A DNA stretch of 64,000 bases, taken from positions 1,860,001 to 1,924,000 of the forward strand of contig NZ_ABIZ01000001.1 of assembly GCF_000172155.1 (NCBI RefSeq), given 5' to 3'. The notes under the pieces are model-generated. The model did not search any database, was not told the DNA's origin, and was given only the letters and a program-made list of their open reading frames with translations. The DNA is from Verrucomicrobium spinosum DSM 4136 = JCM 18804 (GTDB taxonomy: Bacteria; Verrucomicrobiota; Verrucomicrobiia; Verrucomicrobiales; Verrucomicrobiaceae). Numbering within the stretch: position 1 is the first letter of the stretch; every line of letters starts with the position of its first letter. This document shows, one piece after another, positions 12,625 through 24,775 of this stretch. Position numbers and translations under genes: made by a program.

Positions 12625-12823
12625 ACGGGCTTCCAGCCCGTACGTGTTACCGGCGTCCCGCCGGTTCAGGGGGCATCAGACGAGGGAAGGGGAAGAGATT
12701 CCCAAAGTGTCTGGAGACTCCCTCCACGAATCCGATCCGGCGTCCCTCCGGGACGCGAGGCGGGTGGGGCGGTCAATCCGGTGGTTGGCACCACCGGCTA
12801 CTGTCCAGCGTCCCTCCGGGACG
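12625..12823. repeat. Cluster of GC-rich palindromic repeats
   Basis: Perfect or near-perfect palindromes at 12625-12641 (ACGGGCTTCCAGCCCGT), 12649-12665 (ACCGGCGTCCCGCCGGT), 12739-12756 and 12807-12823 (two copies of GCGTCCCTCCGGGACG), and 12778-12797 (arms CCGGTGG/CCACCGG). The last two types alternate, as in composite dispersed repeats known from PVC genomes. Confidence 0.75.
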
Positions 12824-22573: not shown

Positions 22574-23191
22574 ATGGACCTCTTCGCGCCCGACCCCTCT
22601 GCCAACCTGCTGCCCTGCGATGGCATCACGCTCTACCACGGTCGCATCTTCACTCCCACCAACGCGGACCATTACCTCACTGCCCTCACCGCCACCCTGC
22701 AATGGGCGCATGACGAAGTCGTCCTCTACGGCCGTCGCATCACCACGGCTCGCAAGGTGGCCTGGTATGGCGAGGCCCCCTTTGCCTACACCTACTCCGG
22801 CACCACCAAGACCGCTCTTCCCTGGACCTCCGAGCTGCGCGAAATCAAAGCCCTCGTCGAAAAGACCACCGGCACCACCTACAACTCCTGCCTGGCCAAT
22901 CTCTACCACACTGGCGAGGAAGGCATGGGCTGGCACAGCGACGATGAAAAGGTGATGTGTAAGAACACCTCCATTGCCTCCATCAGCCTCGGGGCCGAGC
23001 GCAAGTTCGCCTTCAAACACAAAGCCCGCCCCGACCTCGGCACCATCTCCCTCCTCCTGGAACACGGCAGCCTCCTGGAAATGAAAGGTGCCACCCAAAC
23101 CCACTGGCTCCATCGCCTGCCGCCGACAAAGAAAGTGAGTGAGCCGAGAGTGAACCTCACCTTCAGGACCTTCGGTGCGAATTATAAATGA
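22574..23191 (+). CDS. alkB: AlkB-like 2-oxoglutarate/Fe(II) dioxygenase
   Basis: 205 residues. Oxidative demethylase family repairing 1-methyladenine and 3-methylcytosine in nucleic acids. Iron-binding HxD is in GMGWHSDDEK; the C-terminal half has LGAERKFAFKHK, THWLHRLPPTKKV and PRVNLTFRTFG, matching the second His and the 2-oxoglutarate-binding Arg (RVNLTFR). Length fits the short bacterial/ALKBH2-3-like type. It stands alone between an octamer array and a heptamer array; the stop TGA is inside the heptamer unit AATGATA. Confidence 0.9.
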   Translation: MDLFAPDPSANLLPCDGITLYHGRIFTPTNADHYLTALTATLQWAHDEVVLYGRRITTARKVAWYGEAPFAYTYSGTTKTALPWTSELREIKALVEKTTGTTYNSCLANLYHTGEEGMGWHSDDEKVMCKNTSIASISLGAERKFAFKHKARPDLGTISLLLEHGSLLEMKGATQTHWLHRLPPTKKVSEPRVNLTFRTFGANYK

Positions 23192-23300: not shown

Positions 23301-24572
23301 CTACGCCGCGAACAACGGCCTTTCCGCACCCGCCAGCTCCACGCCTGCCTCTGCCAGCCGGGCCTGCACCTCTGCGATATGCCCCCGGTCCCGGGTTTCC
23401 ACGGTGCATAGTACGTGCACCCGGGACAAGTCAGGTCCTGCGAAGGTGCGGTTGTGCACGATCTCCGTGACATTGGCCCCGGCTTGGGCCAGCACGGATG
23501 AGAGATGCACCAGCCCGCCGGGGCGGTCGCTGATGAGCGCGTCGAAGCGGTAGATCCGCCCGTCCGCTGCCAGGCCGCGCTCGATCACCCGGCTGTGGGC
23601 GAGGGGATCGATGTTTCCACCGGTGAGCAGCAGCACCACGCGCTTGCCCGCCAGATCGGGCAGCAGTCCTGCGAGCATGGCGGCCAGCCCGGTGGCGCCT
23701 GCTCCTTCGATGACGCACTTGTCCAGCTCGGCCAGGCGCAGCATGGCCAGGGCCAGGGCTTCCTCCCCTACGCTGACCATGCGATGCACCAGTGGTTTCG
23801 CGATTTGCAGCGTGTTCTTGCCCGCCTCGGCCACCGCCAGGCCATCGGCCAGCGTGAACCTCGTGGAGATGTGGACGGGTTCGCCTGCCTGGAGCCCCGC
23901 GGCAAAGCAGGCGGCATTGGCAGGCTCCACCCCGATGATCTGGAGATCCGGCTTCAGCGCGTGCAAGACCGTGGCCACCCCGGCCAAGAGACCACCTCCA
24001 CCCACTGGCACGATGATCGCGTCCGCATCCGGCACCTGCTCCAGGATCTCAAAGGCCAGCGTACCCTGGCCGGCGATCACCTGCGGATCATCAAAGGGAT
24101 GCACGTACTTGAGTTGCAGCGCCGCCGCCATCCGCATGGCCTCACTGCGGGCCTCGTCAAAGGTGTCGCCATGCAGCACCACATTGGCCCCAAACCGGCG
24201 GCAGCGGGCCACCTTCACCAGCGGGGCGAATCTTGGCATCACGACCGTCACCGGGATGTTCATCTGGCGACCGTGCCAGGCGAGGCCCAGAGCGTGGTTG
24301 CCGGCCGAGGCGGCGATCACCCCTCGCTGGGTCTCCTCCGCCGTGAGTTGCGCCAGCGCATTGCGCGCCCCTCGTTCCTTGAAGCTCCCCGTCCGCTGGA
24401 GGTGTTCCTGTTTGCAATAGACATGTGCTCCAGTCAGCTCGCTCAGTGCGGCCGACTCCACACAGGGCGTCCGGGCCACCGCCCCCTGGATGCGCAGACG
24501 GGCGGCAACGATCTCCGAAAGGGAAACGCTGGCGGCTGAGGAGGCGGGTTTGGCAGTGGAGGAAGGATTCAT
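23301..24572 (-). CDS. ilvA: Threonine ammonia-lyase (threonine dehydratase)
   Basis: 423 residues. PLP-dependent deamination of threonine to 2-oxobutyrate, first committed step to isoleucine. The PLP lysine is Lys65 in TGSFKERGARNAL; the phosphate-binding glycine loop is VGGGGLLAGVATVL; a single ACT-like domain (about 340-415, VHVLCTVETRDRGHIAEV) sits at the C-terminus, matching the medium-length one-ACT form. The preceding leader (24666-24737) is an Ile-rich ORF followed by a terminator, consistent with attenuation by isoleucine supply; this argues for the biosynthetic rather than the catabolic role. ATG at 24572 gives a short Ser/Ala-rich N-terminal extension. Confidence 0.92.
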   Translation of the reverse strand: MNPSSTAKPASSAASVSLSEIVAARLRIQGAVARTPCVESAALSELTGAHVYCKQEHLQRTGSFKERGARNALAQLTAEETQRGVIAASAGNHALGLAWHGRQMNIPVTVVMPRFAPLVKVARCRRFGANVVLHGDTFDEARSEAMRMAAALQLKYVHPFDDPQVIAGQGTLAFEILEQVPDADAIIVPVGGGGLLAGVATVLHALKPDLQIIGVEPANAACFAAGLQAGEPVHISTRFTLADGLAVAEAGKNTLQIAKPLVHRMVSVGEEALALAMLRLAELDKCVIEGAGATGLAAMLAGLLPDLAGKRVVLLLTGGNIDPLAHSRVIERGLAADGRIYRFDALISDRPGGLVHLSSVLAQAGANVTEIVHNRTFAGPDLSRVHVLCTVETRDRGHIAEVQARLAEAGVELAGAERPLFAA

Positions 24573-24601
24573 GATGGGAGGAAAAGTCTGGGCAGATAAA
24601 C

Positions 24602-24630
24602 AAAAAGCCCCGGGTGGAACACCCAGGGCT
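24602..24630 (-). terminator. Attenuator terminator upstream of ilvA
   Basis: On the minus strand an 11-bp stem (AGCCCTGGGTG and CACCCGGGGCT, one G-U) closes a 3-nt loop (24617-24619) and is followed by TTTTTG. The arms are 24620-24630 and 24606-24616. It ends about 30 bp before the ilvA start. The 5-prime arm includes CAGCCCTG (24625-24632), complementary to CAGGGCTG (24665-24672) at the end of the leader ORF. Confidence 0.82.
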
Positions 24631-24665
24631 GCGGAGGAGAGTCGTGATCGAAAATCAGTGCACGC

Positions 24666-24737
24666 TCAGCCCTGCCCCGGATGGGAGCCAATAATGATCG
24701 CAATGATCATGATCGAGGCAGGTGAAGTGAGCGCCAT
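24666..24737 (-). CDS. ilvA leader peptide, Ile-rich
   Basis: 23-codon ORF: ATG start at 24737, TGA at 24666-24668. It contains SIMIIAIIIG, six Ile codons (ATC or ATT) among eight. A ribosome slowed by low charged tRNA-Ile would stop over these codons and leave the CAGGGCTG segment (24665-24672, covering the leader stop region) free to pair with CAGCCCTG of the terminator 5-prime arm, giving readthrough into ilvA. If translation reaches the stop codon, the ribosome covers that segment and the terminator forms. Too short for standard gene calling; whether it is translated has not been shown. Confidence 0.72.
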   Translation of the reverse strand: MALTSPASIMIIAIIIGSHPGQG

Positions 24738-24769
24738 TTGTGCCGGAAAAGTTCCCCAGATTGCCCTCT

Positions 24770-24775
24770 TGTCAA
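24770..24775 (-). promoter_or_regulatory. Possible -35 box of the ilvA leader promoter
   Basis: TTGACA on the minus strand, a perfect sigma70-type -35, 33 bp upstream of the leader ATG. The sequence about 17 bp further on (AACTTTT) is a poor -10, so the promoter is tentative. Confidence 0.3.

Follow-up and report, generated by a model that had tools for sequence, protein, structure and literature searches.

The stretch of DNA analysed here, referred to as the window, comprises 64,000 nucleotides of Verrucomicrobium spinosum DSM 4136 and harbors the gene ilvA on its minus strand (Table 1). In profile searches, the ilvA product reached 407.5 bits against TIGR01127 (cut-off 378.75) and 285 bits against PF00291, while the ACT domain PF01842 stayed slightly under its cut-off (24.4 versus 27). 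The next gene downstream of ilvA, at 22574-23191, encodes a 2OG-Fe(II) oxygenase on the opposite strand, which suggests that ilvA forms a transcription unit of its own. The leader preceding ilvA is flanked upstream by a divergent sulfatase gene. Elsewhere in the window, a match to the Acido-Lenti-1 RNA was recorded at 12778-12823 on the plus strand, with 38.4 bits against a gathering score of 37.

Table 1. Positions in the window of ilvA and of the observed and predicted elements of its leader
Feature	Position	Strand	Basis or remark
ilvA, threonine ammonia-lyase, 423 aa, PALP domain	23301..24572	minus	TIGR01127, PF00291
Leader peptide ORF, 23 codons, MALTSPASIMIIAIIIGSHPGQG	24666..24737	minus	six Ile codons
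Regulatory run Ile14-Ile15-Ile16 (ATC ATT ATT), expected stall site	24690..24698	minus	codon conservation
Additional leader Ile codons	24702-24707, 24711-24713	minus	
Putative -35 box TTGACA	24770..24775	minus	conserved spacing to leader start
Putative -10 ACTTTT, 2/6 to TATAAT, weak	24747..24752	minus	ends 9 nt before leader ATG
Intrinsic terminator hairpin AGCCCTGGGTGTTCCACCCGGGGCT, 11 pairs	24606..24630	minus	terminator scan and fold
U tract TTTTTGTTT	24597..24605	minus	directly after terminator
Antiterminator hairpin, whole	24621..24682	minus	fold and covariation
Antiterminator outer helix, ATCCGGGGC with GCCCTGGGT	24682-24674 with 24629-24621	minus	
Antiterminator inner helix, GAGCGTG with CACGACTC	24667-24661 with 24646-24639	minus	
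1:2 hairpin, GCTCC with GGGGC	24674..24688	minus	competitor of antiterminator

The short open reading frame with six Ile codons that a sequence-only reading of this DNA had pointed out is present, and so is the stem with a T-run that it had described, which folds as an intrinsic terminator hairpin (-21.2 kcal/mol, z -4.63). Its placement just ahead of ilvA was likewise correct, with a distance from the terminator end to the ilvA ATG of 33 nt rather than the 30 claimed. A terminator scan over 501 bases returned two overlapping terminator-like sites, both at this place, versus 0.4 in shuffles. The whole window contains a single short ATG-initiated ORF with at least five Ile in eight codons, and a terminator lies no more than 110 nt from it; no ORF of this Ile density turned up when the 64-kb window was shuffled 100 times with its dinucleotides preserved.

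The conservation of this arrangement was followed at 17 loci obtained by a protein scan of the genome collection and at seven loci (at least 80% identity) from 57 relatives, which amounted to 22 distinct loci after the duplicates L002 (the same as L031) and L032 (the same as L003) were dropped. Locus L047 was set aside before the counts as an ilvA fragment; there (L047:3001-3426), the last third of ilvA stands alone with unrelated sequence before it, representing a truncated gene or an assembly joint. Leader and terminator were found directly before ilvA in 21 of the 22 distinct close orthologs, and the leader-bearing loci include Verrucomicrobium, Prosthecobacter, Chthoniobacter flavus, and several metagenome-assembled Verrucomicrobia. 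A covariance model built from these 21 ilvA leaders and termed R1, with which true leaders score 33-123 bits, detected one strong copy, at ilvA, in 16/17 genomes of the protein-scan loci, four of which carry a second match of 24-28 bits. None of 60 control upstream regions (40 of cimA and 20 of ilvA paralogs of 55-58%), which came from 233 genomes with a citramalate synthase match and from 27 ilvA paralogs at 54-58% identity, scored above 13.1 bits.

R1 matches were obtained in 2/137 genomes of the order of Chthoniobacter, both known before, and in 8/136 genomes of another order, four of them new (E 4e-26 to 8e-16), which indicates that the leader is present in a minority of genomes in these orders. 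At three of the new loci the leader is followed by an intact ilvA, and at the fourth, L146, by an ilvA with a frame that the record shows as broken close to its beginning (L146:1634-1979). The 21 orthologs and these four covariance-model loci constitute the 25 ilvA leaders analysed below. Among 387 sampled genomes of the phylum, an ilvA of at least 80% identity occurs in four, and these are also the four that carry the leader at ilvA.

The leader terminators of the ilvA orthologs and the covariance-model loci are succeeded by a T-run. Pairs were counted on alignment A1 (21 leaders), since a second alignment, A2, had its terminator columns out of register and was set aside. In A1, 98.9% of the cells of the terminator helix are paired, and four of its nine pairs show double-sided changes. 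As the antiterminator, the sequence-only reading had proposed CAGGGCTG (24674-24667) with CAGCCCTG (24631-24624); both segments are present and complementary, at a spacing of 35 bases rather than 32, but their register is not conserved (79.2% paired, one pair broken in both sister species), and ATCCGGGGC:GCCCTGGGT is kept instead. That reading had also proposed to search orthologs for conserved Ile codons and compensatory changes in both stems; the codons and stems are indeed kept, but the antiterminator it had drawn displays no double-sided change.

The conserved register ATCCGGGGC:GCCCTGGGT is paired in 90.4% of cells in the alignment of ilvA leaders and contains six double-sided cells versus 2.2 in shuffles, with 2/500 shuffles as high. 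In single-sequence folds, the outer helix, of at least 5 bp, was observed throughout the set of 25 ilvA leaders, with a mean z of -3.28, and the inner helices of those folds include the conserved bases around the stop codon; the window segment itself (-24.8 kcal/mol, z -1.33) is mildly better than its shuffles and ranks among the weaker leaders. In 24/25 ilvA leaders, the GGGGC segment falls within the most favourable pairing partner of the terminator 5' arm. The 1:2 hairpin has -5.7 kcal/mol and z -0.69 in the window, and 81.9% paired cells with no double-sided change in A1. When arms were permuted among 20 leaders (the near-duplicates L003, L031, L040, L043, and L146 having been removed from the 25), combinations as stable as the matched ones arose, out of 5000, 0 times for the terminator and, as modest signals, 41 times for the 1:2 hairpin, 69 times for the inner helix, and 171 times for the antiterminator. 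RNAalifold on A1 recovered the antiterminator in part, and the terminator from the full leader. By these comparisons, both terminator and antiterminator covary among the ilvA leaders, the latter modestly.

Related leaders were encountered before other genes. At E <=0.01, R1 matched 32/387 genomes of the phylum, namely 4 at ilvA, 14 in a family labelled f9, which we guess to be the Opitutaceae, and another 14. Thirteen of the f9 genomes, each with a single R1 match, have an Ile-rich leader with terminator before a short threonine-dehydratase-like gene (seven genomes) or before the citramalate synthase gene cimA (six genomes). The design that the sequence-only reading had described ahead of this ilvA is not confined to it. 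One citramalate synthase tested gave 625.7 bits against TIGR00977 (cut-off 450), while one short threonine-dehydratase-like protein tested was nearest to threonine ammonia-lyase models and below all curated cut-offs shown (TIGR01127 308.1 versus 378.75), so that its presumed role is borrowed from the nearest models. All seven genomes with the leader on the short ilvA-like gene also encode a citramalate synthase, which lacks the leader there. For the six genomes that carry the leader at citramalate synthase, a search at E 1e-30 gave no match to threonine dehydratase in four, all of one genus; the remaining two possess an ACT-type threonine dehydratase without leader. The 13 related leaders differ at the C-terminus (RRRMAV, GILA, VDAA) and their stop mostly lies further on, while the distance from the Ile run to the antiterminator is kept.

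Several loci at the margin of this search were inspected individually. At a weak R1 match in f9 (L071:1501-1629), an ORF of 110 aa is preceded by a terminator and, ahead of that, a short ORF (VKLLAASLITLC...), which may be another amino-acid leader. The 14 other genomes consist of L065 and eleven weak matches, which were inspected, and of the weak matches G215 and G425. On the minus strand of L065 (1501-1631), from another class of the phylum, a leader with 11 Ile codons and a GTG start and a terminator precede an acetolactate synthase gene (TIGR00118 620.9 bits, cut-off 538.35). The eleven weak matches (L066-L070 and L072-L077) were discarded as mere terminators or stray similarity, seemingly due to chance, and a terminator near citramalate synthase at L099 was assigned to the upstream gene, with no leader.

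Citramalate synthase of the window's own genome and its relatives is preceded by another conserved short ORF, unlike the ilvA leader but also containing Ile codons, at L078 (G000:C1:2678935-2679415), L079, L081, L082, and L083. It reads MSSAASIWLIRII and MASQPAIFxIRIIxGLLCA, and ATTCGAATTA is kept. A search of this set for T-run terminators on the same strand gave none close to the gene start; in L078, a weak one is located 178 nt upstream. The fold of the L078 region is no more stable than those of its shuffles (z 0.03). This type of ORF could be a second isoleucine-linked leader.

The Ile codons of the ilvA leaders are well preserved. At the second codon of the regulatory run, ATT is found in 23/25 leaders and ATG in 2/25; at the third, ATT occupies 23/25, with ATC and ATG once each. 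Each leader holds two to six Ile codons in 24/25 cases, and the 13 related leaders hold three to six. The single-Ile leader is L034 (L034:1458-1582), where LLIM replaces the III run and the RNA structure is retained. The last Ile codon stands eight codons ahead of the stop in 23/25 ilvA leaders.

The leaders also favour AUU more than the genes they precede. AUU accounts for 64/114 Ile codons in ilvA leaders versus 127/465 in the downstream genes (Fisher P 1.5e-8), for 22/33 versus 9/59 with the short ilvA-like genes (P 1.6e-6), and for 23/30 versus 9/109 with cimA (P 3.0e-13), where the leaders are kin and the counts non-independent, some genes extend past the locus end, and the gene-side counts follow each gene's own frame with L146 excluded for want of a usable one. 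The long ORFs of the window use AUU for 109/545 Ile codons. This preference in the leader sequences points to decoding. AUU and AUC are usually decoded by one tRNA; the preference may act via slower wobble decoding, or may keep the run unstructured. A model of attenuation (PMC1183508) links the choice of regulatory codon to sensitivity via different isoacceptors.

Upstream pieces of 80 nt, or less where the record ends, were searched for promoter elements. For each of the 25 ilvA leaders, the motif TTGAC occurs exactly once in the piece, at a distance of 36-42 nt from the leader start; the gap from the -10 element to the ATG is 7-14 nt (median 10 in 25 leaders), and TATAAT is matched modestly, at three or more positions in 18/25 leaders, against a random expectation of 0.32. 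A generic promoter scan called no promoter at the leader of the window. Shine-Dalgarno-like tetramers were found in 5/25 leaders. The spacing of the -35 motif suggests that the leader mRNA is probably leaderless or nearly so, with its presumed start site at or close to the AUG.

The position of the ribosome was modelled by an occlusion scan in which the footprint was assumed to reach 12 nt past the first A-site base; for six leaders, the regulatory run was placed by hand. In silico, when the last regulatory codon occupies the A site, the antiterminator probability is 0.50-0.89 across the 25 ilvA leaders, and it falls below half of its maximum one to three codons later in every one of them. In the 13 related leaders, the switch lies 0-4 codons after the run despite stops located elsewhere, the poorest being L055 with an antiterminator probability of 0.22 at the last Ile. 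With a 10-nt footprint, the ilvA leader L041 switches too early, at -5 codons, and the other ilvA leaders at 1-4; with 14 nt, the switch occurs at 0-3 for ilvA leaders and at -1 to 3 for the others, L055 being at -1. Equilibrium folding of the full RNA was rejected as evidence for a switch, since the terminator is favoured in every ribosome state (mean 0.95 when stalled, 0.96 with the ribosome at the stop); the switch must consequently depend on the order of co-transcriptional folding. With no ribosome on the RNA, upstream pairing of the terminator 5' arm persists at 0.5 or above in 18/25 ilvA leaders, which differs from the classical picture of the trp model.

Taken as a whole, the ilvA leader is very probably an isoleucine-specific ribosome-mediated transcription attenuator, and the attenuator logic put forward by the sequence-only reading gains support from the conservation, covariation, and modelled geometry of 25 ilvA leaders. 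The AUU preference and the presence of the design at citramalate synthase, the alternative enzyme of entry into isoleucine synthesis, also favour this reading. The testable hallmarks of ribosome-mediated attenuators appear to be present in sequence and model, the 1:2 hairpin least clearly. In the mechanism that we infer, from transcription start through leader translation, stalling, and termination to the response to isoleucine, transcription would begin at or shortly before the leader AUG, and a ribosome would trail the RNA polymerase along the leader. When Ile-tRNA is scarce, the ribosome would stall on the Ile codons before the GCTCC arm, covering this arm and blocking the 1:2 hairpin, and the free ATCCGGGGC could pair with GCCCTGGGT, engaging the terminator 5' arm and permitting readthrough into ilvA. 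When Ile-tRNA is plentiful, the ribosome would pass the Ile run and cover ATCCGGGGC, so that the terminator would form ahead of ilvA.

Three other explanations were weighed. The conserved peptide (MIIAIIIS..GQG) might arrest the ribosome upon a small-molecule cue and not through slow Ile decoding, a notion encouraged by the conservation of C-terminal residues (Gly at codon -3 in 25/25 and Gln at -2 in 21/25 ilvA leaders). However, these C-terminal codons lie within or beside a pairing RNA arm, and both C-terminus and stop vary in the 13 related leaders, where the distance between Ile run and antiterminator is kept; together with the AUU preference, which argues for decoding, this renders nascent-peptide arrest highly unlikely. 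A metabolite-binding riboswitch or T-box with an incidental open frame seems even less likely. In other phyla, T-boxes act on isoleucine genes, and the strong nucleotide conservation around the leader stop codon would suit such an element. Against it, none of the 4227 families of Rfam 15 reached its gathering score on the window leader when covariance models were searched (five matches at E up to 10, to sRNA families, were far under the cut-off), and further leaders gave sub-threshold sRNA matches alone. The spacing also speaks against it, as the distance from start to stop takes the values 57, 66, 69, and 72 nt only, with a GGG codon fixed three codons before the stop, while the spacer from stop to terminator, by contrast, assumes any length from 27 to 40.

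Static folding, which always yields the terminator, would agree with a constitutive terminator of a short upstream transcript next to a chance Ile-rich ORF. That coincidence is the least credible of all, given that the combination was absent from the 100 shuffles and that the arrangement is conserved and covaries among the ilvA leaders. An attenuator sensing isoleucine through translation of the leader is the reading retained here.

Enterobacterial ilvL (ilvGMEDA) and ivbL (ilvBN) possess leaders rich in codons of the end products and mutually exclusive terminator and antiterminator structures; their leaders mix Ile, Val, and Leu codons and precede multi-gene operons. Compared by design alone, the leaders described here share this plan, but carry an Ile run with occasional Val, Met, or Leu and serve one entry-step gene. 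The Corynebacterium ilvBNC attenuator (ilvB-II motif) likewise has an upstream ORF coding for branched-chain amino acids with terminator and antiterminator, and the start of its transcript is one nucleotide away from the first codon of the leader (PMC11857589, PMC10272879); by design, it differs in preceding acetohydroxyacid synthase and in a leader, MTIIRLVVVTARRLP, that mixes Ile, Val, and Leu. The ilvB-OMG motif, which includes a predicted upstream ORF before a branched-chain amino acid gene and has 41 representatives in various phyla (PMC10272879), sits before ilvB; the leaders here reach the threshold of no family in Rfam 15, which may not include all ilvB motifs. For Sinorhizobium meliloti, trpL is described as leaderless, the attenuator RNA starting with the leader start codon (PMC7298713), a likeness to the present case that concerns tryptophan and Alphaproteobacteria. 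A caution comes from ilvB of Streptomyces coelicolor, where altering candidate regulatory codons had no effect (PMC1262725); candidate leaders can mislead. Searches of open-access papers, judged by title and abstract opening, showed no report of an isoleucine attenuator in Verrucomicrobiota, nor of one before citramalate synthase, and in a 2010 survey of premature terminators (PMC2965389), the terms ilvA, Verrucomicrobi, and Opitutus are absent.

The kind of switch is a textbook one, here in what appears to be a family absent from Rfam 15, in Verrucomicrobiota. In a broader joint reading, which could equally well hold or fail, one isoleucine attenuator design would be employed in several Verrucomicrobiota lineages on whichever enzyme gates isoleucine synthesis, be it threonine dehydratase or, where threonine dehydratase is missing or lacks the leader, citramalate synthase, sensing Ile-tRNA via the less-used AUU on leaderless mRNA. 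These findings provide comparative support for translation-coupled attenuation in a phylum for which the searches of open-access papers showed no such report, and add citramalate synthase as a likely target of attenuation. If the joint reading is true, the position of the leader would reveal from sequence alone which of the two isoleucine routes a bacterium throttles. As related genomes place this leader design at one or the other of the alternative entry enzymes, it can serve as a testable marker for control of the isoleucine route, and it makes a natural case of one regulatory RNA design placed on two non-homologous genes.
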